This document shows, in pieces, positions 2,518 through 48,003 of a stretch of 64,000 nt of DNA. The stretch is from NCBI GenBank assembly GCA_030765065.1, contig CM060979.1:106070350-106134349 (forward strand), written 5' to 3'. The position numbers and the translations under genes were made by a program. Each line of letters starts with the position of its first letter. Within the stretch, counting starts at the first letter, position 1. The notes beneath the pieces are model-generated. The model worked only from the letters and a program-made list of their open reading frames with translations. It had not been told where the DNA came from and searched no databases. Source of the stretch: Deroplatys truncata. Its lineage: Eukaryota; Arthropoda; Insecta; Mantodea; Mantidae.

Positions 2518-3267
2518 AAAAAATCTGATGTGTTACACTCACATGACTTTCTCTACTCTTGTACAAACTATTGTTACAAACGCTTATTCTCCATCTACTT
2601 CATGTTAATCGAGATAAACATTTGCAGACTCTATCTTATTGCTAATTTTCTTGTAGATGTAAGGGGAATATATATTTGTAAGGGCAATATAAAAATACAG
2701 TAGTCTTTAAGCACATATATATCTCTTAATAGCTGGTTACTAGGTGCAGCACCATTCTCTTTGCCACAGATTAATATTCTTTGCATATCCAAGACAAAAA
2801 AATGAATAACGAATTCCCATTTGAGAAAATAAATATTGAACATTTTTAAGGGAATAACAAGCAATATCTCGAAAATAGTTCATTCAACAAAAAATGTATA
2901 TGACATAAATTGTGTGTTTTAACGCGATCTACATTTCTTGTGCAGTAAAATTTTGTCTATCTCTTATGGTTTACCAGTTATGCAAAAGTCGTTCACAATG
3001 AAGAATAGTTTGGAGACATTCCCAGAAAATTCGAGATATACATTTCATTTTTCATGAAAATATCTTAAACATATGATATTTTAATCAAAATCGTTTGAGC
3101 CATTTTGAGAAAATTAAAATTTTCGAAAAATCTTCCATGTGAAGGGTAATCTGGGGTGGGGGATTTTCTTGAAAACCTTCGTGTCGCATCTCTAAGATAC
3201 TGAACCTAAATACCAAGTTTGGTGTTTATCCGACTGTTCGTTTCTGAGTTATGCTGTTCACAGACAG

Positions 3268-3301
<34 letters not shown>

Positions 3302-3455
3302 AGACACACACACACACTCAGACATGTTTCTAAAAATGCTTTTTGTGGATTCAGGGTGTCTCAAAACATGTATTTCCGGTGAAATCTCGGTATCGCATTT
3401 TTGGGTGGAATACAATACTTCCCCTACTTACTATACGTAGTAGAGAAAGTAAAAA
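2518..3455 (+). mobile_element. Family A non-autonomous repeat, near full length (copy 1)
   Basis: This is one of about 14 related copies in the window. It opens with AAATCTGATGTGTTACACTC, then ACTTTCTCTACT (2546-2557), and closes with the exact reverse complement AGTAGAGAAAGT (3439-3450). No long open frame is present, so it cannot mobilise itself. A CA microsatellite sits about 200 bp from the right end, the same place as in other copies. Subterminal inverted repeats and lack of coding suggest a MITE-like DNA element. The leading AAAAAATCTG block outside the left repeat has no partner on the right, so exact ends and target duplication are uncertain. Confidence 0.7.
3267..3318. repeat. (CA)n microsatellite inside family A
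   Basis: An almost pure CA/ACAG run within family A copy 1. It produces spurious His-Thr and Cys-Val frames on the two strands. Confidence 0.9.
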
Positions 3456-9612: not shown

Positions 9613-10037
9613 ACACTCACTCGCTCACTCGCTCACTCGCTCACTCGCTCACTCACTCACTCACTCACTCACTCACTCACTCACTCACTCACCCACCCAC
9701 TTACTCATTCACCCACTTACTCACTCACCTACCCACAACTCACTCACCCACTTACTCAGTCACCCACCCACTCACTCGCGCATCACAACACATTCAATCG
9801 CTCACTCACTGACCTACTCACCCACCCACTCACTCATCCTCCTACTCCCTCACTCATTCACTATCCACTCACCTACCTACTCATTCACTCACTCACCTGC
9901 CTACCCATTCACCCATCCACCAACTATTTACTCACTCACTCACCCACCTACCCATACACCCACCTACGCACCCACCGACTCACCCACTCACCCACTCATT
10001 ATTACAGCTACACACCCACTCACTCCTAACTCACTCT
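9613..10037. repeat. CTCA-type tetranucleotide array (about 425 bp)
   Basis: A pure CTCA/CTCG core grades into CCCA, CTAC and CATT variants toward the right. The HSLTHS- and THPPT-type translations are consequences of the 4-bp period. Purity decreases from left to right, as expected for an expanding core with an ageing edge. Confidence 0.95.
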
Positions 10038-10642: not shown

Positions 10643-11914
10643 CACGGTCTAAGTTATATATCCGGACACCTGGCTGAGAATGACGTACAAGTTCGTGGCG
10701 TCCTCCATCGGTAATGCTTGAAGTCAATAGGGTATTGACCCACCCTTAGCCTTGGTGACAGCGTTCACTCTCGCAGGCATACTTTCAATCAGGTGCTGGA
10801 AGGTTTCTTCGGGAATGGCAGCCCATTCTTCACGGAGTGCGGAACTGAGGAGAGGTATCGCTGTAGGTCGGTGAGGCACGTTCCGTAAGTCGGCGTTCCA
10901 AAACATCCCAAAGGTGTTCTATAGGATTCAAGTCAGGACTCTGTGCAAGCCAGTCCATTACAACGATGTTATTGTCTTGTAACCACTACGCCACAGCCTG
11001 TGCAATATGAACAGGTGCTCGATCGTGTTGAAAGATGCAATCGCCATCCCCGAATTGCTCTTCAACAGTGGGAAGCAAGAAGGTGCTTAAAACATCAATG
11101 TAGGTCTGCGCTATGATCGTGCCACGCAAAACAACAAGGGGTGCAAAACCCTCCAGGAAAAACACGACCACACCATAACACCACCACCTCCGAATGTCAC
11201 TGCTGGCACTACACACGCTGGCAGATGACGTTCCCGGGCATTCGCCATATCCTGCCATCGGATCGTCACATTGTGTACCGTGTTTCGTCACTCCACACAA
11301 CGTTTTGCCATTGTTCAATCGTGTAATGTTGACTCTCCTTACACCAACCGAGGCGTCGTTTGGCATTTTCCTGCGTGATGTGTGGCTTATGAGCAGCCGC
11401 TTGACCATGGAATCCAAAGTTTCTCACCTCACGCCTAACTGCCATATTTCTCACCTCACCTCACGTCTAACTGCCATAATACTTGGAGTGGATCCTGGTG
11501 CAGTTTGGAATTCCTGCGTGATGGTCTGGATAGATGTCTGCCTATTACTCTTTAGGACCCTCTTCAAATGTCGGCGGTCTCTGTCAGTCAACAGACGAGG
11601 TCGACCTGTACGCTTTTGTGCTGTACATGTCCCTTCACGTTTCCACTTCACTATCACATCAGAAACAGTGGACCTAGGGATGTTTAGGAGTGTGGAAATC
11701 TCGCGTACAGACTTCTGACACAAGTGACACCCAATCACCTGACGGCATTCGAAGTCCGTGAGTTCTACGGAGCGTCCCATCCTGATGATTCACGATGTCT
11801 GATGACTACTGAGGTTGCGGATAATGAGTACCAGGCAGTAAGTGGCAGCACAATGCATCTAAGATGAAAAACGTATGTTTGTGGGTGTGTCCGGATACTT
11901 TTGATCACATAGTG
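10643..11914 (-). mobile_element. Tc1-like transposon, degraded
   Basis: The right terminal repeat reads inward CACTATGTGATCAAAAGTAT and abuts a TA (11915-11916). The left end keeps the inner TATCCGGACACC part, but its outermost bases have decayed. The 1.27-kb length and single minus-strand transposase are typical of Tc1 family elements. Confidence 0.9.
10724..11780 (-). pseudogene. Tc1-family DD34E transposase pseudogene
   Basis: In Tc1-family elements this protein binds the terminal repeats and catalyses cut-and-paste at TA. Translation from ATG at 11780 gives a paired-like helix-turn-helix N-terminus (MGRSVELTDF; VREISTLLNI; GRPRLLTDRD). The catalytic motifs WSDE, QHDRAPVH and SPDLNPIEHLW follow. 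Thirty-four residues separate the second Asp from the Glu, the DD34E spacing of Tc1. The frame is broken by a local tandem duplication of the MAVRREVR segment (about 11422-11475) ending in a stop, by a frameshift near 11280, and by a TAG after the second Asp. It is therefore non-functional. Family assignment is firm; finer clade is not. Confidence 0.9.
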
Positions 11915-14127: not shown

Positions 14128-14984
14128 TTTAAAAAATCTGATGTGTTACACTTACATGACTTTCTCTACTCTTCTGCAAACTATTTTTTACAAACGCTTA
14201 CTCTCCATCTAATTCTTGTTAATTGAGATACAGAGATGTAAATTTTACTGCTAATTTTCTTGTAGGTACAAGGAGAATATTGTTGGTTTTAAACTATAGT
14301 CAAATCTTTTAAGAGCTTGTTGCTATGTGGAGCATTACATGTTCAGGACATTAAAAAAATAAATAAAAGAACTCATGAATTCCCATTTGAGAAAAAGTTT
14401 AAGTATTGGAAAATTCAAACAAATAATAGGAATATCTGGGAAATAGTTCACTTGATAAAATAAATTGTATATGACATGAACTGTGTGTTTTAACGAGAAG
14501 TTTTTGTACAAAATTTTGTCTATCTTACGGTTTACCAGTTATGGCAGAGCCATTCAGAAAGAGGACTTTTGGAGACATTACCAGAAAATTCAAATATGCA
14601 TTTTATTTGTCATAAAAATATCTTAAATGTATGACATTTTAATCAAAATCGTTAGAGCCATTTTTGAGAAAATCAAAATTTTCGAAAAATATTCCACGTA
14701 AAGGGTAGTCTGAGGTGGAGGGATTTTATTGAAAATCTTTGTGTCGCATCTTTGAGAGATACTGAACCTAAATACCAAGTTTGGTATTTATGGACTTTTC
14801 GTTTTTGAGTTATGCTGTTTACAGACACACATCCACACACACACTCGCACGACCATTTTCTAAAAATGTTTTTTTATTCAGGGGGCCTCAAAACATGTAT
14901 TTCCGATGAAATGTGGGTATAGAATTTTTGGATGGAATGCAATACTTTCCCTACTTAACTATTCGTAGTAGGGAAAGTAAAAAT
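14128..14984 (+). mobile_element. Family A repeat, near full length (copy 4)
   Basis: The left end carries AAATCTGATGTGTTACACTT followed by ACTTTCTCTACT, and the right end reads AGTAGGGAAAGT, one mismatch from perfect inverted symmetry. A short CA run occupies the standard position (about 14822-14850). The flank GCATTTAAAA on the left and AATTGCATTTA on the right hints at a target duplication but is not exact. Confidence 0.7.
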
Positions 14985-17970: not shown

Positions 17971-17997
17971 GATATGAGTAGACATATTAGGAGAGAT

Positions 17998-18057
17998 CCA
18001 GAACAATGGGCTATTGTTCTGGTCAGAACAAAGGAATTAATGACCTATTGTTCTGAC
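17998..18057. promoter_or_regulatory. Twin GTTCTG palindromes at the left terminus
   Basis: CCAGAACAAT GGGCT ATTGTTCTGG (17998-18022) is a perfect 10-bp-arm palindrome. GTCAGAACAA (18022-18031) and TTGTTCTGAC (18048-18057) form a second perfect 10-bp inverted pair. Thus four AGAACAA half-sites occur within 80 bp of the end. The right end repeats this at 27832-27891 with one base change. Possible roles are terminal hairpin formation or binding of an end-recognition protein; both are inference. Confidence 0.75.
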
Positions 18058-18061
18058 TTCA

Positions 18062-18480
18062 AGCCCCGCCCCCCTCTTTGTGTGCTACTATTTGCCGCCC
18101 TGGTCGCGTGCCGCTAGCCCCGCCCCCTCCCTTTGTGGGCTCACCTAATGCCGACTGGGTCTGTGTCGTCAGGTCCTCCCCCCTCCCCCATGTGGTCTAG
18201 TCACGTGCCGGTGGCCCCACCCCCTCCCTCCCTCCCCTTTGTGGTCTGGTTGGTTCCCTGTGGATAGGTGGGAGAGTGTATATTGTGCCTATACGGTGGA
18301 TGCATTCCCGCCCCCCCTCATTGTGACTTTTCTAAATCTCTGCCGTGTGAATGGTTCCCTGCGGATATGTGGGAGAGTGTGTATTGTTAGTATACGCTGG
18401 CGACGTCACTCTGCTCTCATAGCGTCCTGTCTAAATCCCCCGCCCCTGGTAAGGTGTGTGTGTGTGGTAGGGAATGTGAT
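18062..18480. repeat. C-rich subterminal repeat block
   Basis: Blocks such as CCCCGCCCCCTCCCTTTGTG recur about five times in degenerate form. A second motif, GTTCCCTGYGGATANGTGG followed by GAGAGTGT and TATTGT, occurs at about 18249 and 18352, roughly 103 bp apart. The mirror copy lies at about 27409-27828. G+C content is far above the flanks. ORFs across it are repeat artefacts. Confidence 0.75.
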
Positions 18481-18596
18481 TCTCGATGCCTGCCGCACAT
18501 CGGCAAAACGTTTGAGTACATAATTGTGTCAATCAATTAGATAATGTTCGTCCATGTATAAAACATTATTGAAAAAAAAGAATCGCCATCATATTA

Positions 18597-18830
18597 CTAC
18601 TAATGTCCACAAATTACACTTCTAATGAAACGCGGCTAGTCGGTCGATGAAAACAATTAAGTATTTTTGATTGATTAATTGTATATGAATTGACTTGCGC
18701 ACCTGCTTCTAAACCCCATTTTTACATCTACTAATGTCCACAAATTACACTTCTAATGAAACGCGGCTAGTCGGTCGATGAAAACAATTAAGTATTTTTG
18801 ATTGATTAATGTAATTGACTCGCGCGCAAC
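18597..18830. repeat. Iterated AT-rich units (iteron-like), left arm
   Basis: A unit containing CTAATGTCCACAAATTACAC, GGCTAGTCGGTCGATGAAAA and TTGATTGATTAAT, ending near AATTGACTTGCGC, occurs twice about 130 bp apart. A shorter version recurs at about 19460-19515. Mirror copies are at 26350-26410, 27060-27160 and 27186-27300, and an extra copy lies outside the arms at 25347-25475, making seven in all. Origin or binding-site function is inference. Confidence 0.7.
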
Positions 18831-18886
18831 TGTTCGTCATCGTATATGTGTGGTAGCATGTGTATAATTATTACGAGTAATAACAT

Positions 18887-19222
18887 TTATTTAATTCTAC
18901 TTTTGAGGGAAAATATTACAACACTTAGATGAATCCATAGCTGAAAGGACAGAGTTGCCGTGACAGTCGTTATAGCGTGATAATTTCGCTGAAAACCCGC
19001 GCGCAGCCCTTTCCTCCATGGAGCGCCAGACTGGTGTGAACGACTCTCGGCCAGTGTAGTGACAAGTCGACTACGGCACCCCCTCCAGTCGCGTTTCAGT
19101 TCGCAACCTACACCAGCGCGCCAGGTGGTAATATGAGTGAAACTGGTTTTTTCTCTCTGAACCAGCGAGGGTATCCTCACGGCGCCCCTGGTGGTCATAT
19201 CCGAAAGTTGTGAATTCGCCAT
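18887..19222 (-). CDS. TIR-encoded hypothetical ORF, left copy
   Basis: From ATG at 19222 this CpG-rich frame encodes about 111 residues starting MANSQLSDMTTRGAV. The right-arm counterpart (26645-26962) differs by a few substitutions and a shorter C-terminus. A TATA-like TTATATAGAG (about 19258) and a seven-codon upstream frame beginning ATGGCCGCC precede it. Transcription would run outward toward the element's end. I recognise no domain; the product is Arg- and Ser-rich. TIR identity alone explains its conservation, so it may be a promoter region rather than a gene. Confidence 0.25.
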   Translation of the reverse strand: MANSQLSDMTTRGAVRIPSLVQREKTSFTHITTWRAGVGCELKRDWRGCRSRLVTTLAESRSHQSGAPWRKGLRAGFQRNYHAITTVTATLSFQLWIHLSVVIFSLKSRIK

Positions 19223-19639
19223 ATTTAAACTCAAGGCGTGCGCAAGGCGGCCATCTTAACTCTATATAATTCAGCGAAATATGATTCCGGAAAAAAAAAT
19301 AAAGGCGAATTAACATTTTAGTTAAATAATACTCGTTTAACATGCGAGGTGCGTTCATATTGTCTCGTTATAATTCCGGAGGAATTGATTATGAAAAAAA
19401 TAAATACGGTTAACATTATAGTTAAATATTACATACGTTATTAAAAAATAAATAAGGCTCTCGCTGATCGATGAATACAATTAAATATTTTTTATTAATT
19501 AATGTAATTGACTTGCGCACCTAGAGCTATCTCACTCATTTTCAATAGAAATGAATATAGGTAGAGGCATTCGAGGAAAAATACAGAGCAGGGAATATCA
19601 AAAACAGACTTCGTCTCCAACACGTAAACTCTCCCTCTC

Positions 19640-19860
19640 TCCATACAGAACCTTCACTCTCCCTCTCTCCCTCCCTCTCTCTCTCTACCTCTCCTTACAA
19701 GAAATTCGAAACATGCGCGAAGACCTCAAATATAAATTTGATATTCGTTTTTAAATGTTCTCTCTCTCTCCCTCTCTCTCTCTCTCTCCTTACAAGAAAT
19801 TCGAAACATGCACGAGGACCTCAAATATAAATTTGATATTCGTTTTTAAATGTTCTTTCT
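19640..19860. repeat. CT-rich tract with a duplicated block of about 100 bp
   Basis: CTCTCC-type sequence followed by CTTACAAGAAATTCGAAACA through TTTGATATTCGTTTTTAAAT occurs twice in the left arm. The right arm (26100-26230) has it once. The length difference shows that the arms have not been fully homogenised since the duplication. Confidence 0.8.
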
Positions 19861-19969
19861 AAAGACGTAGCGAACTTTGAGAAATTCAACGAATTATTTA
19901 CTTGCGTACCCTGCTTGAAAGAAATATACTGTACAACCCTGAAGAACGCCTGCAGACTTCTCGGAAGAA

Positions 19970-20747
19970 CAGACTAATCACGCTATGTAATAGACTAATC
20001 ACGCTATGTAACAACCTCATCACGCTATGTAACAGACTCATCACCCTATGTAACAACCTGATCACGCTATGTAACAGACTCATCACGCTGTGTAACAGAC
20101 TCATCACGCTGTGTAACTACCTGATCACGCTATGTAACAGACTCATCACGCTATGTAACAGCCTGATCACGCTATGTAACAACCTGATCACGCTATGTAA
20201 CAGTCTCATCACGCTATGTAACAGACTCATCACGCTATGTAACAGACTTATCACGCTATGTAACAGACTCATCACGCTGTGTAATAACCTGATCACGCTA
20301 CGTAACAGACTCATCACGCTATGTAACAACCTGATCACGCTATGTAACAGTCTCATCACGCTATGTAACAGACTCATCACGCTATGTAACAACCTCATCA
20401 CGCTATGTAACAGACTCATCACGCTATGTAACAACCTCATCACGCTATGTAACAGACTCATCACGCTATGTAACAGACTCATCACCTATGTAACAACCTG
20501 ATCACGCTATGTAACAGACTCATCACGCTATGTAACAGACTCATCACGCTATGTAACAGACTCATCACGCTATGTAACAGACTCATCACGCTATGTAACA
20601 ACCTGATCACGCTATGTAACAGTCTCATCACGCTATGTAACAACCTGATCACGCTATGTAACAACCTGATCACGCTATGTAACAGACTCATCACGCTATG
20701 TAACAACCTGATCACGCTATGTAACAACCTGATCACGCTATGTAACG
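19970..20747. repeat. 21-bp minisatellite, about 37 units
   Basis: The unit is close to ACAGACTCATCACGCTATGT plus A. It begins directly at the inner edge of the left arm. Two variants interleave, one with AGACTCAT and one with AACCTGAT. Because 21 is divisible by three and no stop falls in the unit, both strands stay open (NRLITLC and MSLLHSV repeats), broken only where a unit lost two bases near 20486. There are no unique spacers, so it is not a CRISPR array. Confidence 0.97.
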
Positions 20748-21070
20748 ACGCCTGGAAATGATAGGAACAATCCGATGTGCAGATGACGAATGTTTCCAGA
20801 GAGCATCCTTTTTCCATGCTCGCACTCACCATGTTCTGTTTACGCGGCGTTGTAATGTAATGTTCCGCTGTTAGGATGGTTTAGGAGACATGGCAGGCAA
20901 AAGGGGCGGGGCCCGTACCCCTTAAAGATTTGAACCTGAGGTCTGTCCCATTCAACCTGGCGTCTACTGGCTCCGTGAACAATAGTTGTCTAGATGACTA
21001 ATGTTTCAAGAGAGTATCCTTTCCCGCTGCTATGCATAGATCGCGATTCCCTCCGCCGTCCTCACCCTGG
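20748..21070. other. Region between minisatellite and zinc-finger-like gene
   Basis: It contains an imperfect direct repeat. AGATGACGAATGTTT and AGAGAGCATCCTTT (about 20780-20812) are echoed by AGATGACTAATGTTT and AGAGAGTATCCTTT (about 20991-21021). The second copy lies just upstream of the TATA box of the following gene, so it could be a promoter-linked duplication. Confidence 0.5.
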
Positions 21071-21078
21071 ATATATAC
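21071..21078 (+). promoter_or_regulatory. TATA box of the zinc-finger-like gene
   Basis: ATATATAC lies 97 bp before the ATG at 21168, preceded by a GC-rich segment. The spacing fits a core promoter with a short 5' leader. Confidence 0.5.
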
Positions 21079-21167
21079 ATAGTTGCGTGTTAAGAATTCA
21101 TTCATTCGCTTTTAATTCCTTCGAGCGTTAGCATTCACGTATTCATTTAATTTCTTTTAGTTTTAGC

Positions 21168-21668
21168 ATGAGCTACTGCCGGAGAAAATCTGTGCAACTA
21201 ACGAATGAGAAACTTAATTTTTCATACATTACACATGGAGGAAAACGCGTTATTAGATGCTGTATATGCACGCGGACTTTTAAGAATCGTTCTTTGTCAA
21301 GATTTAAGCTTCATAGAGCAACATGTTATACTGGATCGACTCTCTCTCCTGCACTCGAAGATCCGAAGATGTATAGAGGGGGATGTTATACCGGATCAAG
21401 CCTCTGTCCTTCACTGGAGACTACTGTTGGTGAAAAATCTGGATACAGCGGAAGTCGCGAGAATATGAAATCTTCATATGATGATGATTCAGTGATATCT
21501 ACGCTTGAAAATCCGAATAGACTAGTAAATATATTGAGGTTACTAATTGCATCGAGAGACGCTGGTAATAATAGTCACACACAAGAGATTGTACTTACTA
21601 CAAAAACTTGTACTTATAAAATACATCATCCAGACATTGTTGAGACGTTTAGTTTTTTTTATGGATAA
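21168..21668 (+). CDS. Zinc-finger-like protein of the long-TIR element (166 aa)
   Basis: Single-exon frame beginning MSYCRRKSV. Residues about 27-51 read CCICTRTFKNRSLSRFKLHR followed by ATC, a Cys-x2-Cys..His-x3-Cys arrangement like a C2H2-type finger with Cys as last ligand. Residues about 54-85 contain a duplicated CYTGSxLxPxLE motif, matching a tandem duplication of about 80 bp in the DNA. The rest is polar and unrecognised. A TATA box upstream and AATAAA at 21790 support a transcription unit. It is convergent with the spliced minus-strand gene. A DNA-binding role, for example at the TIRs, is plausible but inferred. An overlapping frame (21205-21468) is treated as a shadow. Confidence 0.55.
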   Translation: MSYCRRKSVQLTNEKLNFSYITHGGKRVIRCCICTRTFKNRSLSRFKLHRATCYTGSTLSPALEDPKMYRGGCYTGSSLCPSLETTVGEKSGYSGSRENMKSSYDDDSVISTLENPNRLVNILRLLIASRDAGNNSHTQEIVLTTKTCTYKIHHPDIVETFSFFYG

Positions 21669-21789
21669 TGAAGGTCTCTCTCTGTGTGATGTATATGGTT
21701 ATATAACTGAATGTCTAGACTATCACCTTTGTCTTTAGGAAATATGTATGTTTTTTGTATAGGAATGTAATAGGATAATGTTTATAAAA

Positions 21790-21795
21790 AATAAA
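21790..21795 (+). terminator. Poly(A) signal of the zinc-finger-like gene
   Basis: AATAAA about 120 bp after the stop codon, followed by a T-rich stretch containing TGTTG. This is consistent with a eukaryotic cleavage and polyadenylation site. Confidence 0.5.
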
Positions 21796-22144
21796 TGTTG
21801 TTTATATTACATAGGCATCATTTTTTTATTAATCTTTTTATACACCTCATATCATACAGTCCAATATTAAGATGGTTCTGTCTTCTAGATTCCCATTTAT
21901 TCAAGTCTCTTTCAGTAATAGTTCAATAATTTTTTTTTGTTTAGATTTCATGTAGCATCAATGTATTTTAAGATAGACATTCTCCTTAAACAATTATGAA
22001 ATTATTTATGAAATAAATGGTATAGGCGGGTATAGCAGTAATAATGAGTACATAATTTATATATTATTGCTATCAAGTATTTTTATATTAAAAATCCTTT
22101 ATATTTTTCTTTTTTTTTGAGGGATAAACGTAGACACTTAGAAA
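21796..22144. other. AT-rich spacer between convergent genes
   Basis: Very AT-rich with no open frame. It leads into the 64-67 bp tandem repeat. Confidence 0.5.
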
Positions 22145-22470
22145 CTCTCATACGCAATTTAAATGAATATATACAATAATATCATTAGAGGGAAAAATTA
22201 TTACATAAAAGCCCTCATACACAATTTAAATGAATATATATAACATCATTAGAGGGAAAATTAATATATAAAAAACCCTCATACACAATTTAAATGAATA
22301 TATACAATTACATCATTAGAGGGAAAAATTAATATATAAAAACCCTCACATACTTTAAATGGATATATACAATAACATCATTAGAGGGATAATTTATTAC
22401 ATAAAACCCTCGCATACTTTAAATGAATATTTACAATAACATTATCAGAAGGAAAAGAGGTAAGTGCTGC
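22145..22470. repeat. Tandem repeat, five units of 64-67 bp
   Basis: Units start at about 22145, 22212, 22276, 22343 and 22407. Each runs from CCCTCATACACAATTTAAAT to a CATTAGAGGGAAAAATTA segment, so CCCTC and GAGGG could pair within every unit. The array lies between the 3' ends of two convergent genes. A terminator-like, replication or packaging role is possible but untested. Confidence 0.9.
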
Positions 22471-22563
22471 GTGCTGTCAACTTCTTGGTCTGTTCCCATG
22501 TTCCAACTATTTTTGAAATCAGTGTATTTTCTCACATTCTCTATAAATTTTCCATATACGGCG

Positions 22564-24504
22564 TTATTCATATTTGTCCATAGGTCTTGCGAAATTTGGA
22601 CAATTTTTGACTGCTCTTCTCTGCATTAAGAATGATATAGGTCTTTTACTAAGGATGCGAAACGTTCCATGCGGAGAGTCCGCCTTCTCAATCTTTTCTA
22701 AAATATCCCCCGCAATTGAAGAAAATATCTGATTGAGGTCGCTTGACTGAAATACACGCTTTGTCTTAGAATTAAGGAAGGAGGTGGGAACGATCGTGTC
22801 TCCATCAGGTTTACGGATTGCATATTTAACCTCCATGGAACAAATAATTTTCAATCCCGAATGCTTCTCTGCAAGACGCTTTCCACTTCTTTAATAATAA
22901 GCTCCTTGCACTCATCTAAAAATTCTGGGGTCGAGTATTTCTGATGTATTTTCTATTTTACTATTAAAAATACATCCATTGAATATCGCTCGGCTGGTAT
23001 TGCATTTCAGACCCTGGAACTTACTAGCACTAACCTTGGCTTTCTTAATTGCAAGTTGCTCGCCCCCGTCCGATACCGGTCCTCTCTTCCCATTCACCGG
23101 TGCTACATCATTGGATGATGAGGAGGATGACTGTGCTGCGGCTTCAGCATTTGCAGATGAGGATGTTGATGATGCAGCGGATTCAGTATTTGTGGATGAG
23201 GAGCTTGATGTTGCAGAGGGTACAACTTCCCTCAGAGTGTTGAGTGATGAGGAGGCGGACGGTGCAGCGGTCGAGTCTTCACCAATCTCCGGCGATGCTG
23301 ACCTCTGTGTTGCTAGATCCATAGGCTGGCTTCCAAGGTCACCCAGATCATTTCCTGGAATAATAATAATAGTAATAATAATATTAATAATAATAACAAT
23401 AATATTAATAATATAGAATGTGTAAAAGAAGTTCATAAAATGTTGAAAAAATTATTACCACTCAGTGGTTGCTGCATGTATGGGACAGGGCCCCCCAGTG
23501 CTGATTTGATGCAGGGAAGGCGTATGGTGCAGAGGGCGCGTGATGAACAAACCCGCCTCCGAAATAAAGTCCACTTCCTGAAAATAATAACAATAATAAT
23601 AATAGTAATATAGAATGTGTAAAAGAACTTCATAAAATGTTGAAAAATATTCTTACCGGTCGGTGGTTGCTGCATGTATGGGGGCAAGCCTCAACCATGC
23701 TGATTTGGCCCTTGAAGGCTTGGAAGCCAGGTGGTGCCGGTGCATCGGTCGATGGATGCCCGATCCCAAAATAAAGTCCATTTCCTGAAAAAATAATAAT
23801 AATATTATTATTATTATTAATATAGAATGTGTAAAAGAAGTTCATAAAATATTGAAAAATTCTTACCGTTCGGTGCTTGCTGCATGTATGGGGCAGCGTC
23901 CCACCCCTGCTGATTTGGTACTAGGAAGGTCTGGAAGCCTGGAGGTGGCGGTGCAACGGTCGCGAAGCCTGCTGGTACAACGCTTGCGAAGCCTGGAGGT
24001 ACCGGTGCAGCGGTCGCCTGTTGAGCGATGCCGCCTCCGAAATAAAGTCCATTTCCTGGAAAAAATAAATAATAATAATAATAGTATAGCATGTTTAAGT
24101 ACAGAGTTCTAAAGAATCTACACTCTATACGTGATAAATTACATGTTTTAAACACCTGCGTGAAAAATACATAGATTTCTGGGAGACCGAAAGAGTTATG
24201 TGACTGCATATGGGGTGAGAAACTCCCCTTAAATATATCCTTTTCTCCTTGTACAATCCAGAACTCTATGCTGTCGTAGGTAGGTCTTGTGTGCTAGAAT
24301 CGGCATTGTATGTCTACTATTAAGTAATTTTTATTTACAATTGCTCAAACACCAGTCTGTAAATTCTAACCGTACGAGTGTTGCTGTATGTACGGGGCAG
24401 AGCCACCTCCATGATGATTCGGCCCCATGAAGGCTTGGAAGCCCGGTGGTGCCGGTGCAGCGCTCGAAGGATGGCCGATACCAAAATAAAGTCCACTTCC
24501 TGGA

Positions 24505-24537
<33 letters not shown>

Positions 24538-24667
24538 GAATATGAACAAGAAGTTAATATAAATTGTTACATTACTTATTTAAAAACTCTGAAGAATGCT
24601 TACCATTCGGGTGTTCGGGTGCCTGAATCATTACGGTATTTGATGAGCGATCCTGCAGCCGGCGGCC
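22564..24667 (-). pseudogene. Multi-exon gene with duplicated Gly/Pro exons, PolB-N-like domain
   Basis: Minus-strand exons deduced from splice sites: partial first exon 24604-24665, then 24371-24499 (129 nt), 23867-24055 (189 nt), 23657-23784 (128 nt), 23459-23577 (119 nt) and last exon from 23354. Acceptors are CCAG or TCAG after AAT-rich introns, and donors are mostly GTAAGA-type. All introns are phase 1, splitting a Gly codon. Middle exons repeat GLYFG, PPGF and PYMQQ. The last exon has a Ser/Ala-rich stretch, a basic KRGP..KKAK nuclear-signal-like patch, then (after frameshifts near 22925 and 22880) segments around CSMEVKYAIRKPDGD, FLNSKT and ILEKIEKA. That part resembles, from memory, the domain before DNA polymerase B in Polinton-like proteins. 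Two middle exons have lost frame, and family A sequence replaces the 5' part. Confidence 0.55.
23380..24560 (-). repeat. Tandem exon-plus-intron duplication
   Basis: A module of about 200-270 bp is repeated four times: AAT-rich intron, acceptor, GLYFG exon, donor, then GAATGTGTAAAAGAAGTTCA. The best matching copies start near 23420, 23620 and 23825, with a more distant fourth near 24340. Exons of 129 and 189 nt are multiples of three with matching phase, so duplication keeps the frame; those of 128 and 119 nt do not. Confidence 0.75.
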
Positions 24668-25033
24668 CAGAAAATTCGAGATATACATTTCAATTCTCAT
24701 TACAATATCTTAAACATATAATATTTTATTCAATATCGTTAGTCATTTTTGAGAAAATTAAAATTTTCGAAAAATGTTCCATGTAAAGGGTAGTCTGGTG
24801 CGGGGCATTTTCTTTAAAACCTTCGTGTCGCATCTCTGGAAGATACTGAACCTAAATACCAAGTTTGGTGTTTTATCCGTCTCTTCGTTTCTGAGTTATG
24901 CTTCACAGGCACACTCGCAGACAGCCATGCTTTTTTCGGATTCAGAGGGTCTCAAAACATGTATTTCCGGTGAAATGTCGGTATCGATTTTTTTGGGTGG
25001 AATACAACACTTCCTCTACTTACTCCAAGTAAA
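24666..25033 (+). mobile_element. Family A fragment inside the long-TIR element (copy 5)
   Basis: It begins abruptly mid-consensus at CCCAGAAAATTCGAGATA and runs to the family's right end (CTTACTCCAAGTAAAAA), lacking the left half. It interrupts the 5' part of the spliced minus-strand gene, with loss of sequence at the junction. Confidence 0.75.
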
Positions 25034-25989
25034 AACTCATTCGCAAATACTTAACGTCGCAAAAATATTACTTGAAATGAATTCTTGTGTGTGTATTAAG
25101 TTTATATTTAACATGCTGGAATATTCAAAAAATATCTCTCGAATGGATGAGGTATTTAAAATCGTTCTCGTCCTATGTTTACTAAGAGAATAAGCCAATC
25201 TTTTTAAATGGAATAAATTAAGAGTAACGAGGATTGTTTAGGATAGGCTCCATATTTCATTATTTATTTAGAATTAAACAAATGCTATTAGTCGTAATAG
25301 TTATACACGCGTAATAATCACGCACATACGTCACCAACCAAATGCGCAAGTCAATTCATATACAATTAATTAATAAAAAATATTTAATTGTTTTCATCGA
25401 TCAGCGAGAGCCTTATTTATTTTTAATAGCGTATGTAATATTTAACTATAATGTTAACCGTATTTATTTTATTTTTAATAACATATGTAATATTCACCGT
25501 TCTGAATACTTTTTACTCTCGCCAAATCATATTTCTTTGTTTAACATACCGAAAAAAATCAGTTTAATTTTTGATATCATGCATGCAATTCTTGTATGTG
25601 TGTATTTAAATAATGACAGAGATACAATCGAATGTTTAAGTACTGAACCTATACAGTATACGTTTAATTACGTTTAATTTATATTAATTATCGGGGAAAA
25701 TTTTTTTTGTGGTAAGCTTAAAACATGACTAGACTTGGTTTTCCACGGTTTGTGATGGAATTTCTGCACAGAGGAAGCCATTAACAAATTCTATTGTATC
25801 GCTAATAGTTATTTACCCAGAGGGTCTGTGGTTTTTCAGGGCACTTAGGATGTTTAATGAAGGGGAAACGTCTGCCATTGTCCACTAATGGCTCTATACA
25901 GGACCCTGTTTTGCATTCTTCAAACCCTCTTAAGATGTTTAATGACGTGGAAGCGTCTGCCATTGTCCTCTAATGAGTGTCTACATGTC
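25034..25989. other. AT-rich inner spacer before the right arm
   Basis: At 25347-25475 there is an extra copy of the arm sequence found at 26351-26470 (CAAGTCAATT, TTTTCATCGATCAGCGAGAG, GTTAACCGTATTTATTTT). At about 25846-25890 and 25931-25975, GATGTTTAATGA followed by CGTCTGCCATTGTCC is repeated about 82 bp apart. The AT-rich frame at 25342-25677 starts in repeat sequence and is not convincing as a gene. Confidence 0.5.
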
Positions 25990-27912
25990 TTCTTCCGAGA
26001 AGTCCGCAGGCGTTCTTCAGGGTTGTACAGTATATTTCTTTCAAGCAGGGTACGCAAGTGAATAATTCGTTGAATTTCTCAAAGTTCGCTACGTCTTTAG
26101 AAAGAACATTTAAAAACGAATATCAAATTTATATTTGAGGTCCTCGCGCATGTTTCGAATTTCTTGTAAGGAGAGGTAGAGAGAGAGAGAGAGAGAGAGA
26201 GAGGGAGTGAGTGAAGGTTCTGTATGGAGAGAGGGAGAGTTTACGTGTTCGAGACGAAGTCTGTTTTTGATATTCCCTGCTCTGTATTTTTCCTCGAATG
26301 CCTCTACCTATATACATTTCTATTGAAAATGAGTGAGATAGCTCTAGGTGCGCAAGTCAATTACATTAATTAATAAAAAATATTTAATTGTATTCATCGA
26401 TCAGCGAGAGCCTTATTTATTTTTTAATAACGTATGTAATATTTAACTATAATGTTAACCGTATTTATTTTTTTCATAATCAATTCCACCGGAATTATAA
26501 CGAGACAATATGAACGCACCTCGCATGTTAAACGAGTATTATTTAACTAAAATGTTAATTCGCCTTCATTTTTTTTCCGGAATCATATTTCGCTGAATTA
26601 TATAGAGTTAAGATGGCCGCCTTACGCACGCCTTGAGTTTAAATATGGCGAATTCACAACTTTCGGATATGACCACCAGGGGCGCCGTGAGGAAACCCTC
26701 GCTGGTTCAGAGAGAAAAAACCAGTTTCACTCATATTACCACCTGGCGCGCTGGTGTAGGTTGCGAACTGAAACGGGAGTGGAGGGGGTGCCGTAGTCGA
26801 CTTGTCACTACACTGGCCGAGAGTCGTTCACACCAGTCTGGCGCTCCATGGAGGAAAGGGCTGCGCGCGGGTTTTCAACGAAATTATCACGCTATAACGA
26901 CTGTCACGGCAACTCTGTCCTTTCAGCTATGGATTCATCTAAGTGTTGTAATATTCTTATAAATCCAAAATATATTTCCCCTCAAAAGTAGAATTAAATA
27001 AATGTTATTACTCGTAATAATTATACACATGCTACCACACATATACGATGACGAACAGTTGCGCGCGAGTCAATTACATTAATCAATCAAAAATACTTAA
27101 TTGTTTTCATCGACCGACTAGCCGCGTTTCATTAGAAGTGTAATTTGTGGATATTAGTAGATGTAAAAATGGGGTTTAGAAGCAGGTGCGCAAGTCAATT
27201 CATATACAATTAATCAATCAAAAATACTTAATTGTTTTCATCGACCGACTAGCCGCGTTTCATTAGAAGTGTAATTTGTGGACATTAGTAGTAATATGAT
27301 GGCGATTCTTTTTTTTTCAATAATGTTTTATGCATGGACGAACATTATCTAATTGATTGACACAATTATGTACTCAAACGTTTTGCCGATGTGCGGCAGG
27401 CATCGAGAATCACATTCCCTACCACACACACACACCTTACCAGGGGCGGGGGATTTAGACAGGACGCTATGAGAGCAGAGTGACGTCGCCAGCGTATACT
27501 AACAATACACACTCTCCCACATATCCGCAGGGAACCAATCACACGGCAGAGATTTAGACAAGTCACAATGAGGGGGGGGCGGGAATGTATCCACCGTATA
27601 GGCACAATACACACTCTCCCACCTATCCACAGGGAACCAACCAGACCACAAAGGGGAGGGAAGGAGGGGGCGGGGCCACCGGCACGTGACCAGACCACAT
27701 GGGGGAGGGGGAGGACCTGACGACACAGACCCAGTCGGCATTAGGTGAGCCCACAAAGGGAGGGGGCGGGGCTAGCGGCACGCGACCAGGGCGGCAAATA
27801 GTAGCACACAAAGAGGGGGGCGGGGCTTGAAGTTAGAACAATAGGTCATTAATTCCTTTGTTCTGACCAGAACAATAGCCCATTGTTCTGGATCTCTCCT
27901 AATATGTCTACT
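25990..27912 (-). repeat. Right terminal inverted repeat
   Basis: Mirror of 17977-19969. It contains the palindromes at 27832-27891, the C-rich block at 27409-27828, iterated units at 26350, 27060 and 27186, the CpG-rich ORF at 26645 and a GA tract at 26172-26210. Only single-base differences and short indels are seen by eye. Confidence 0.95.
26645..26962 (+). CDS. TIR-encoded hypothetical ORF, right copy
   Basis: Counterpart of the left-arm frame, from ATG at 26645 with TATA-like TTATATAGAG about 45 bp upstream. About 105 residues, with a few amino-acid differences from the left copy (for example Lys for Ile and Glu for Asp). No domain is recognised, and the reading frame points outward. 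It may be only a promoter-rich CpG segment. Confidence 0.25.
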   Translation: MANSQLSDMTTRGAVRKPSLVQREKTSFTHITTWRAGVGCELKREWRGCRSRLVTTLAESRSHQSGAPWRKGLRAGFQRNYHAITTVTATLSFQLWIHLSVVIFL

Positions 27913-27918
27913 TATATG

Positions 27919-30994: not shown

Positions 30995-32284
30995 CGAGAG
31001 CGGATCGAAAAGTAACGCACAATAATTTTTTTTCTGCCTTGGTATTGCAGCTGGAATGTTGTAATTTCACACAGATATAGTTTGAAGTTTTCACTACAGA
31101 GGATATTTTTGTGTTCATATGCAGCTCTAGCGAGAGAAGGTGAACCACGCAACTAAGATGGCGCTCATGCTACTATCGTCCCTGTGTGAAGAGCAGAGAG
31201 GTATGGTTCGATATCTGTGGGCCAAAGGGCATAAACCGAGTGATATTCACAGAGACATGCGTGGCATGTATGTGGATGATTTTATGGACCGTAGCAATAT
31301 CTTTCTAGAGGACTGTGTGTACCTTAGTGATTTGCTACGCTCCGGGAGGACGGTAACAGCTGCAACCCCGCAGTATGTCAGAGGCATTGAGGCGGCGTGT
31401 TCAACTGCGAACCTTATCGCAACAATTCAACATCTCCTATGGTGCAGTGTACGATATTGTTCATGACACGTTGAAATTTCGTAAAGTTAATGCTGGCTGG
31501 GTGCCTAAGAACCTGACAGACAACCACAAGGGCCAGCGAATGATGACGAGCTTGGATCACCTAACGCGGTATACCGCAGAAGGGCATGCCTTTCTGGAAG
31601 GAATCGTCACTGGTGATGAGTCGTGGGCATACCATTACACGCCCGAAACCAAGCAGGCAAGTATGGAGTGGAAACATGCTGGGTCCCCTGAAGAAAAAAT
31701 TCAAAGGGACCCAATCTACTAGGAAAGTGCTTGTGACGGTGTTCTGGGATGTGCATGGTATTGTATAGGTGGATTTTGCTGAACACGGGACCACTGTAAA
31801 TGCTGCAGCCTACATGAAAACTTTGGTGATGCTGCGTCGAGGCCTTCGTGACAAACGCCGCAACGTGAATGCTGACGATGTCATAATTCTTCATGACAAT
31901 TCTCGGCCCCAAGTTGCTGCTGCTGTTCGTCAGAGAATCACCAAATTTGGTTGGGAGGTGCTCAAGCATCCACTATACGTCCGGAACTTTCACCGTCGGA
32001 CTTTCATCTGTTTGGTCCCACGAAGAAATTCCTGGCCGGCCAACGCTTTGCGACAAATGCGGAAGTGAAATCAGTAGTCCGGAGATGGCTATACTCCAAG
32101 GAAACGGACTTCTACGAACAGGGCATATTGAAACTGGTATCACGATTGGAGAAATGTGTTGAGAAACTTGGTGACTATGCCTGAAAGTAGGTAAAAGATG
32201 CAAGTTCATTTATTATTTTTGTTGTTGTTTTAACTATTGAACTTTTTCATAAAAAATTATTGTGCATTACGTTTCAATCCGCCC
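30995..32284 (+). mobile_element. Mariner transposon, degraded (1.29 kb)
   Basis: Terminal inverted repeats read CGAGAGCGGATCGAAAAGTA at the left and CGAGGGCGGATTGAAACGTA inward from the right. Both continue into ACGCACAATAATTTTTT or ATGCACAATAATTTTTT. TA (32285-32286) follows the right end; the left TA has decayed. Size and structure are standard for mariner. Confidence 0.92.
31158..32184 (+). pseudogene. Mariner DD34D transposase pseudogene
   Basis: In this family the protein excises and inserts the element at TA. From ATG at 31158 the N-terminal helix-turn-helix (EEQRGMVRYLWAKGHKPSDI) is recognisable. WVPKNLTD, TGDESWAYHY, ILHDNSRP and SPSDFHLF follow, the last three carrying the catalytic Asp residues. 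Thirty-four residues separate the second and third Asp, as in mariner. The tail GILKLVSRLEKCVEKLGDYA is typical. Reading requires frame changes near 31390, 31695 and 31985, and a TAG interrupts at about 31766, so it is inactive. Confidence 0.92.
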
Positions 32285-34509: not shown

Positions 34510-35419
34510 AAAAAAATCTGATGTGTTACACTCACATGATTTTCTCTACTCTTGTACAAACTATTTTTACAAACGCTTATTCTCCGTCTACTTTATGTTA
34601 ATCAAGATAAACATTTGCAGACTCTATCTTATTACTAATTTTCTTGTAGATGTAAGGGGAATATATATTTACAAGGGCAATATAGAAATACAGTAGCCTT
34701 TAAGCACATACATATCTCTTAATAGCTGGTTGCTAGGTGCACCACCATTCCCTTTGCCACAGATTAATACTCTTTGCATATCCAAGACAAAAAAATGAAT
34801 AACGAATTTCCATTTGAGAAAATCAGTATTGAACAATTTAAGGGAATAACAAGAAATATCTCGAAAATGGTTCACTCAACAAAAAAAATGTATATGACAT
34901 AAATTGTGTATTTTAACGCGATCTACATTTTTTGCATAGTAAAAGTTTGTCTATCTCTTATGGTTTACCGGTTATGGAAAAGTCGTTCACAATGAAGAAT
35001 ACTTTTGGAGACATTCCCAGAAAATTCAAGACATACATTTTATTTGTCATGAAAATATCTTAAACATATCATATTTTAATCAAAATCGTTAGAGCCATTT
35101 TTGAGAAAATTAAAATTTTCTTAAAATATTCTATGTAAGGGGTAATCTGGGGTGGGGGGATTTTCTTGAAAACCTTCGTGTCGCATCCTTGGAAGATACT
35201 GAACCTAAATACCAAGTTTGGTGTTTATCCGACTGTTCGTTTCTGAGTTATGCTGTTCACAGACACACAGACAGACACACACACGGACATGTTTCCAAAA
35301 ATGCTTTCTTTGGATTCAGGGGATCTCAAAACATGTATTTCCGGTGAAATCTCGGTATCGAATTTTTGGGTGGAATACAATACTTCCCCTACTTACTATA
35401 CGTAGTAGAGAAAGTAAAA
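34510..35419 (+). mobile_element. Family A repeat, near full length (copy 7)
   Basis: Very close to copy 1. The left end has ATTTTCTCTACT (one mismatch) and the right end AGTAGAGAAAGT. A CA-type microsatellite lies at about 35263-35284. Similarity to copy 1 is high enough to suggest comparatively recent spread. Confidence 0.75.
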
Positions 35420-35640
35420 ATTCGAGCTTCTATAGGAAGGGGTGAAAAATTATTTGCATGTCTGTTAAACTGGACGACAGCTACGACATTTACACGTATG
35501 AGAGCTTTCATCAGCGACATGGAGACGAAGGTTAAGTTGTTGCTGCCACTAAACGGCAATAAGTAAATATATGACTTAAGTTGTAATGTACCCTTCGGCA
35601 GTTCGGCTATACCTACCTACTTTTGCAGAGGTGGCAACAA
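35420..35640 (+). repeat. Dispersed repeat family E (copy 1)
   Basis: The reverse complement of 59390-59560 matches here (ACGACAGCTACGACATTTAC; GAGACGAAGGTTAA). As the second copy lies just upstream of a non-LTR retrotransposon fragment, this may be retrotransposon coding sequence, but no motif is decisive. TACCCTTCGGCAGTTCGG near 35590 recurs on the minus strand near 57070. Confidence 0.45.
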
Positions 35641-46156: not shown

Positions 46157-47020
46157 TAAAAAATCTGCTGTGTTATACTCGCATGGCTTTCTCTACTCTT
46201 GTACAAACTATTTTTACAAACACTTATTCTCCATCTACTTCATGTTAATCGAGATATCGAGATGTTAATTTTATTGTTAATTTTCTTGTAGATGCAAGGC
46301 GAATTGGTAGGCTTTAAGCTATCGTCAAATATTTTAAGAGCTGGTTGCTATGTGGAGTATTCCATTCTCTTTGCATTACCAGGACAAAAAAAATGAATAA
46401 CTAATTTGAGAAAAAGTATAAGTATTGGAAAATTTAAGGGAATGACCAACAATATCTCGAAATGGTTCACTAAAAAAATGTATATGACATAAGTTGTGTA
46501 TTTTAACGCGATCTACATTTTTTGTGCAGTAAAATTTTGTCTATCTCCTATGGTTTACCAGTTATGCAAAAGTCGTTAACAATGAAGAATACTTTTGGAG
46601 ACATTCCCAGAAAATTCGAGATATACAGTTCATTTGTCATGAAAATATCTTAAACATATGATATTTTAATCAAAATCGTTAGAGCCGTTTTTGAGAAAAT
46701 TAAAATTTTCAAAAAATGTTCAATGTAAAGGGTAATTTGGGGTGAGGAGATTTTCTTGAAAACCTTTGTGTCGCATCTCTGGAAGATACTGAACCTAAAT
46801 ACCAAGTTTGGTGTTTATCAGACTGTTCGTTTCTGAGTTATGCTGTTCACAGGCAGACACACAGACACGCACAGACACACACACACGGACATGTTTCCAA
46901 AAATGCTGTTTCTTATTCACGGGGCCTCAAAACATGTATTTCCGGTGAAATATCGGTATCGAGTTTTTGGATGGAATACAGTACTTCCCCTACTTACTAT
47001 ACGTAGTAGAGAAAGTAAAA
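46157..47020 (+). mobile_element. Family A repeat, near full length (copy 12)
   Basis: Left AAATCTGCTGTGTTATACTC then GCTTTCTCTACT; right AGTAGAGAAAGT. CA-type microsatellite at about 46854-46886. It starts immediately after the split SINE. Confidence 0.7.
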
Positions 47021-48003
47021 ATACCGTCTCATTTTTGGGAGAAACTTGGTTGAAAGTAACTGATCTTTATATTACAGAAAATGTGAAAAGAATAATTTCT
47101 AGTACATAAAAATATATTAATGCAGAAATCTGTTTAAGAACCTAGAAATGCTTGCTATTCTATGTGAATGTGTACCATTTACAACGACGTTTATAAATCT
47201 GTGCTGAACCAAAATATACATGACAAAAGCGTTGCACAAAAATATAATTGCAGCACTATAACGTTATCAAAAATTGGTTTATTATGAATGCGTTTTAAAA
47301 ATAATTCTCTTCCCTTTAGCTTAAAGACTTTTTACTCGTAATAGTTTAAAGAGATCTACTAGCCTTCAGCAAAGGATTCGTCATCATTACATCGTGTTGT
47401 TGATACAACTCAGCATCTTTTCTCTTAGCTTTAAAATTAATTTCTCAGCCAGATGATAATGAATGTTTCTGACATGGCTCCATCACCTTTAAAGCGGAGA
47501 GCAAGCATTTCAAACATACGTCCTTCAGAGTTACTATACAAGTGGGGCTTGCATATTGCAATGTATGGCAGAATTCCACAGAGAGCTCTCGACGCTAAGT
47601 GCAAGTTTCCCTGTCCAGTTAATGTCCACGGTCCTTTCACCAGCAGACTGCGGTTACGCTCCGACCTCCTTCATATTGTCCTTCTAGTTAACGAGAACCG
47701 CTGGCCTTTGTTCGGAACAGGGGAGCAGGAGGGCTCTGTAGCACATTACATTTTCAACCAACTACTTTTTAGACAAGATTATACAGTGAATAAATAGTTC
47801 AGAGTTTTCAACAGTGGTAGTTAATGCTACCTTTGGCAGTTTTATCTCTTCTTGTTCTTCACAACGCAGCTGGCATTTATTTGGTCCTGTTAAAAATGAC
47901 GAATTAGGATTTATAGGCTGTTTTAAAAGTGACTTTAAAGATTAATAATAACAATAATAATCATAGTAATAATAATAGTATGTGAAACGACAGCCTTTGT
48001 GGG
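47021..48003. other. Unassigned; contains a 114-codon open frame
   Basis: Plus-strand 47453-47797 is open and compositionally more protein-like than its neighbours (starts MIMNVSDMAPSPLKRRAS). However, no domain, signal peptide or splice context is recognised, and the opposite strand is also partly open. It could be a relic of a retroposed gene or chance. Confidence 0.25.

Follow-up and report, generated by a model that had tools for sequence, protein, structure and literature searches.

A 9.9-kb element in the genome of the mantis Deroplatys truncata (assembly GCA_030765065.1, contig CM060979.1) appears to be a non-autonomous, mirror-ended deletion derivative of a Polinton, comparable to a defective-interfering genome, that would have formed during Polinton replication and been integrated in trans; we give this reading a probability of about 0.65. 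The element lies in a stretch of 64,000 nucleotides (positions 106,070,350 to 106,134,349 of the contig, forward strand), hereafter the window, whose numbering is used unless another locus is named. The termini, the 6-bp integration duplications and the PolB-side sequence are common to the window and to full-length Polintons of the same genome. The window element is without the half that carries integrase, ATPase and capsid and without most of PolB, and its capsid-side end is replaced by an inverted PolB-side end.

By repeat search and alignment, the arms of the window element span ~1,998 bases on the left and ~1,928 on the right (inner edges ± a few bases) and are 98.3% identical in inverted orientation over 1905 aligned columns, with 32 mismatches and 6 indel events, which bears out the near-identical inverted arms of ~2 kb reported in a preliminary description made from the letters of the window. 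The flanking hexamers GATATG and TATATG, one base apart, were also read there as we read them; the span it assigned, 17971-27918, contains a real element together with both target-site hexamers, the element proper running from 17977 to 27912 with the termini AGTAGAC and GTCTACT. What the description missed is the cause of the long terminal inverted repeats (TIRs). Past the TIR shared with asymmetric relatives, the left arm matches only the PolB-side end of those copies. Because the asymmetric TIR measures only ~0.6-0.8 kb and the rest of the 2-kb arm matches the PolB-side end alone, we read the window element as a mirror derivative, whose long TIRs arise, on the alignments, from mirroring of the PolB-side end onto the capsid side.

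The 4.29-Gb assembly (818 contigs) was searched with window bases 17971-18090, a search that the preliminary description had proposed. The 40 scored places, out of 280 candidates, comprised the two ends of the window element, 16 head-to-head pairs and six single ends. All 16 paired relatives carried AGTAG- at both ends, and a perfect 6-bp target duplication flanked every relative with both ends read (17/17, the 16 pairs and C1:61, described below); the description had named copies without such a duplication as evidence to the contrary, and none of the 17 lacked one. The inverted-arm element is not a product of chance, because its terminal 120 bases recur genome-wide in pairs that all have AGTAG- ends and perfect 6-bp duplications. 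Half of the paired relatives (8/16) are asymmetric, 20.4-23.8 kb long, with TIRs of ~0.6-0.8 kb in all eight; the symmetric elements comprise seven long ones of 17.6-21.1 kb, C1:61 counted, and three short ones of 5.0, 9.9 and 12.0 kb, the window among them. A 30-mer containing the first terminal hairpin of the window-type terminus was found at 27 exact places in the genome (control 0).

Full-length relatives with the same termini, which the preliminary description had suggested looking for, carry Polinton genes. In C1:8.8 (C1:8.77-8.79 Mb, read in pieces), Pfam identified an rve integrase (3e-9), a Pox_A32 ATPase (7.3e-7), a PLA2-like domain (1.2e-12), Adeno_PX and a double jelly roll capsid protein (1.1e-110), and C12:60 and C6:167 have frames that by eye start like those of C1:8.8. 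DNA_pol_B_2 was matched in C6:167 at 1.6e-23; the C1 and C12 PolB frames gave no Pfam PolB match, the C1 frame being 94% identical to that of C6:167, and the YMDTDS motif is present in the PolB frames, the C1 frame included. The named capsid homologues included insect proteins and the hexon of a Megastigmus wasp adintovirus, 41% identical. No Pfam match to an adenovirus-like protease was obtained among the nine C1:8.8 frames (frames ≥150 aa scanned), the capsid and PolB proteins had no convincing match among solved structures, and the capsid compared with phage records yielded little or nothing. PHROGs returned little for ten proteins, the integrase matching a transposase at 2.7e-5, and NCBIfam related the integrase to IS481 only, below the cut-off.

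Because the same termini and 6-bp duplications flank copies with integrase, ATPase, double-jelly-roll capsid and PolB domains, the family is identified by its gene content as Polinton, and the window element is classed as a non-autonomous Polinton derivative, not a complete Polinton. Of the two options that the preliminary description had left, a non-autonomous Polinton is thus retained, and a different long-TIR virus-like element is discarded on the evidence of the same termini and duplications on gene-bearing relatives. The family shares with Polintons/Mavericks, adintoviruses included, the AGT-type ends, the 6-bp target duplications and, in the full-length relatives, rve integrase, A32-like ATPase and double-jelly-roll capsid, with PolB by the Pfam match in C6:167; unlike them, the window copy has no capsid, ATPase or integrase and parts of PolB only, its long TIRs are mirror duplications of one end, and some of its relatives are near-palindromes. 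For vertebrate Mavericks, the available part of PMC8097293 gives 6-bp duplications, AGT-type or AG-type ends, TIRs of 46-1,447 bp (mean 402) and lengths of 12.7-24.6 kb; the asymmetric copies fit these ranges, whereas the mirror copies with 2-8 kb arms do not.

Nine of 17 elements, namely the window element and 8 of its 16 paired relatives, have the PolB-side end at both termini. C4:111 is mirrored over ~8.2 kb per half in a total of 17.6 kb and C8:48.8 over 4.4 kb at 98% in a total of 12.0 kb; samples taken 5-6 kb from each end of C7:201 are inverted copies at 98.7%, and in C1:286 the mirror was seen at the centre, with 98.8% identity over 509 bases. C16:325 is mirrored about PolB, another axis, and the stretches read (ends and centre) contain neither the array nor the zinc-finger gene that mark other members. 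This 21-bp tandem array is present in six of the nine symmetric elements, near the centre in five and beside the left arm in the window, and in none of five asymmetric elements read end to end; its place in the window would fit a later loss of the left interior. In the mirror elements, zinc-finger genes flank the array as divergent pairs. Two convergent integrase matches 2.9 kb apart (C9:40756147-40759116) may mark a further mirror element, one with an axis close to the integrase. A 143-aa frame (L059:5933-6361) lies in the interior of one mirror element and was found again in C7:201, with no relative among solved structures or viral contigs.

Read from its right end, the window element follows the order of the PolB side of full-length copies and is homologous to them in all parts except the array and the zinc-finger module (Table 1); for the latter, none of the five asymmetric copies compared gave a match of ≥150 bases. 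Neither a frame nor homology for an integrase was detected in the element (Pfam on ten window pieces and alignment to full-length copies), and nothing beyond the TIR aligned to the ATPase-capsid part of the full-length copies. PolB persists as a remnant, residues 1-201 and 949-981 of 1,218. The preliminary description saw only a zinc-finger-like gene and a decayed spliced gene, a correct reading; the second, judged from the alignments, is the 5′ part of the PolB gene, with one more PolB scrap adjoining. Upstream of the large PolB exon, the main alignments run at 82-91% to the stretch that precedes the frame of PolB in the full-length elements. Several similar exons in one phase seem to make up the upstream part of the gene, and this part of the window aligns at several offset places in the copies. 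At 24665/24666, ~1.8 kb of the full-length copies is missing from the window, C8:48.8 and C4:203. Pfam gave weak matches only, none above the cut-off, for the ten window pieces; Rfam at gathering scores and tRNA scans of the window gave little or nothing, as did a comparison of the PolB piece 22567-22890 with proteins, phage records and viral contigs.

Table 1. Features of the mirror-ended element, in window coordinates.
Feature	Position	Strand	Basis or remark
Left target-site hexamer GATATG	17971..17976	.	
Whole element, 9,936 bases	17977-27912		flanked by the two target-site hexamers
Left arm, inverted copy of the PolB-side end of a full-length Polinton	17977..19974	+	arm alignment and comparison with asymmetric copies
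Two adjacent hairpins near the terminus (CCAGAACAAT/ATTGTTCTGG plus a second)	17998..18055	+	DNA fold z = -5.6
21-bp tandem array, ~37 copies	19968..20746	+	
Zinc-finger module	20755..22073	+	94.7-98.6% to left half of C4:111
Zinc-finger gene	21168..21665	+	frame departs from other copies after ~residue 141
64-bp repeats	22076..22456	-	sited between PolB and integrase in full-length copies
PolB fragment	22458..22645	-	~residues 949-981 of the 1218-aa frame of C1:8.8
Large exon of PolB, N-terminal part	22690..23355	-	~residues 1-201; frame break near 22900
Upstream PolB exons, putative splicing	23357..24665	-	repeated GLYFG..PPGFQ..APYMQQ with AG/GT borders; borders by eye
PolB-side accessory region	24666..25984	-	alignment to full-length copies
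Right arm, the PolB-side end in its original position relative to PolB	25985..27912	-	alignments
Right target-site hexamer TATATG	27913..27918	.	

In the accessory region, 24666-25024 carries ~360 bases of a dispersed ~0.9-kb repeat, and a matching stretch occurs in the full-length copies; elsewhere in the window the repeat lies at 2518-3455, 14130-14983, 34511-35420 and 46158-47022. The window also holds decayed frames that by eye resemble Tc1/mariner-type transposases (10986-11789 and 31131-31722) and a CACT tetranucleotide array of ~420 bases (9614-10036).

A 30-mer marker of the zinc-finger gene has 634 exact places in the genome (0 for the reversed control), and an integrase 30-mer has 180. 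Searching with the zinc-finger protein yielded 8,507 loose candidates; scores were computed for 150 of them, with internal stops in eight listed rows; among these 150, 38 of 39 close gene pairs are divergent. Among the first 100 marker places listed, all 43 pairs less than 12 kb apart are divergent, and 14 places have no partner. An alignment of three copies of the protein found three homologues, two of them with weak zf-BED matches below the cut-off, and its C-terminal tail, LRLLIASRDAGNNSH..., also ends a 273-aa protein encoded beside the integrase in full-length copies; we interpret the zinc-finger gene as an accessory gene of Polintons. Roughly 140 N-terminal residues survive in the window copy, in which the frame of the last residues is lost. 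Purifying selection on the gene was not visible in four copies with very few differences (pN/pS, the ratio of nonsynonymous to synonymous differences, near 1).

The symmetry of a divergent gene pair was used to predict element ends. At C1:61 they were found where expected, giving an element of 19,202 bp whose centre lies within 6 bp of the centre of the gene pair. Read in snippets (C1:61.16-61.18 Mb), this copy has another terminal stretch, AGTAGAATAAG..., of a type with 23 exact places in the genome, and it has AGTAGA ends and a perfect GGCAGG duplication. By eye, the outermost ~70-90 bases differ between C1:61163119 and window 17977, and the next stretch looks homologous. Terminal cassettes thus look as if they had been exchanged between subfamilies. 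An alternative, in which the zinc-finger/array palindrome would be a foreign element inserted into Polintons, was set aside because the C1:61 copy sits within Polinton arms that have AGTAGA ends and are flanked by a perfect duplication; this is one amplified copy and does not settle all copies.

The arms were also compared across elements. In 8 of the 9 symmetric elements, the arms resemble one another more than they resemble the arm of any other element, and the TIRs of the asymmetric copies, taken as control, are closest to each other in 1/8. In a maximum-likelihood tree of 27 arms, left and right arms are starred sisters in seven of the nine symmetric elements (99/100 for the window), the starred branches force at least 4 label changes, and a single clade of symmetric arms is rejected (approximately unbiased test, p 0.00055). 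In their PolB fragments, the window and the full-length copies have a common or recombined history. Either mirrors form repeatedly, or an array-bearing mirror lineage swaps ends with full-length copies; both may hold, given that C16:325 has a different axis and shows no array in the stretches read.

These results would be explained by an accident of replication. The protein-primed, strand-displacing replication proposed here would free single strands, and a nascent or displaced strand could fold back or change template, so that the PolB-side half would be copied onto itself. The resulting molecule would have two identical ends, each recognised by PolB/terminal protein and by the integrase, and full-length copies could replicate and integrate it in trans, as happens with the symmetric defective genomes of linear viruses. 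In a single-stranded hairpin the arms would pair, and mismatch repair would keep them alike; the 21-bp array would form the loop at the axis and may serve as stuffer DNA. The window copy would be a further-deleted member, having lost its left half between arm and array. We infer the formation of mirror genomes during Polinton replication, and we infer the help of full-length copies in replicating and integrating the mirror class from the shared ends and the presence of such copies in the genome. Symmetric defective-interfering genomes are known in protein-primed linear viruses such as adenovirus. They share with the window element the inverted copying of one end onto the other, the loss of the other half and a dependence on helpers, putative here; unlike them, the copies described here are integrated in a host genome. 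Our literature search found no paper on such symmetric viral genomes. Protein priming is the expected mode of Maverick replication, according to the part of PMC8097293 available. Galileo and Foldback of Drosophila also have long, internally repetitive inverted arms; unlike the present family, they are classed with P elements, and Polinton-type ends or genes are unmentioned in the available part of PMC3573991.

Several observations weigh against a replicative origin. The hexamers of the window agree at five of six bases; the weakest mirror, the 5.0-kb C4:203, has mirrored arms of 965 bases; the ends of C1:163 are mirrored, but the sequence on either side of its array is unlike; and the array is absent from C8:48.8, C4:203 and the ends and centre of C16:325. 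The arms of C8:35.5 are 96.3% alike and 96.5% identical to C1:286, and in the tree neither those of C8:35.5 nor those of C4:111 are resolved as sisters. When ends were predicted a second time, at C3:49.8 Mb, no Polinton sequence was met at the expected places, and it would therefore be premature to assign every gene pair to a complete element.

The mirrors could also have arisen after integration of an asymmetric Polinton, either by chromosomal gene conversion that proceeded inward from the short TIR and overwrote one end with the other, or by recombination between two copies. Recombination of two insertions would leave no common duplication, and one was seen in all eight symmetric relatives and in C1:61; the shared target duplications therefore exclude a join of two insertions. 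They leave room for conversion of one end by the other, since a single insertion converted in place also predicts matching duplications, and the short 2-kb arms of the window and the imperfect mirrors C8:35.5 and C1:163 agree with it. Conversion tracts of 4-8 kb would be needed in some copies, however, and the absence of the array from five of five asymmetric copies and the multiplication of divergent gene pairs would be left unexplained, so that we consider this origin unlikely. Integration of the mirror form as such is favoured by arms that extend 4-8 kb, by the array and by the large number of divergent gene pairs. An ordinary Polinton with an internal deletion, from a lineage that always had 2-kb TIRs and in which symmetry means nothing, could appeal to the variable TIRs of vertebrate Mavericks (46 to 1,447 bp in the part of PMC8097293 available); it is improbable in view of the ~0.6-0.8 kb TIRs of all eight asymmetric copies and the mirrors that reach 4-8 kb.

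More serious, though we give it less than even odds, is the possibility that a single ancient palindromic Polinton lineage was inherited in that form and later swapped ends with full-length elements of the same genome, mirrors not being made repeatedly. In its favour, a 1-kb inner sample is 95-98% alike among C4:111, C7:201 and C8:48.8, and their ends are scattered in the tree; C16:325, with its PolB axis and neither array nor zinc-finger gene in the stretches read, makes at least one mirror look independent. Palindromes are hard to assemble, and the analysis covered the assembled sequence, so hairpin reads or collapsed repeats might be thought to have given false inverted arms. This is very hard to reconcile with the 32 mismatches and 6 indels between the window arms, with a target duplication common to both sides in 17/17 relatives and with the like behaviour of many loci.

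Taking a replicative origin as the preferred reading, we tentatively propose, with somewhat less than even confidence, that palindromic Polinton satellites, with two PolB-side ends, an axial array and divergent zinc-finger copies, outgrew their helpers (634 vs 180 marker places), stay symmetric through hairpin replication and in their long form remain near helper length (17.6-21.1 vs 20.4-23.8 kb). That the long form is close to full length although its capsid genes are gone would agree with a limit on size, for instance packaging in helper capsids; the copies of 5-12 kb show that such a limit is not absolute or that deletion came after integration. No description of a mirror or palindromic Polinton was recognised in the literature searched, which is weak evidence, as subscription journals lie mostly outside its coverage; the available passages of PMC12721341 and PMC12220804 contain none.

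Polinton replication is hard to watch directly, and mirror genomes that have integrated would preserve a fossil record of it: the copying of one terminus onto its opposite is the trace that snap-back or template switching by a strand-displacing, protein-primed polymerase would be expected to leave. The conservation of length in copies without capsid genes would hint, indirectly, at packaging. If this is true, Polintons gain a class of satellites comparable to defective-interfering genomes.

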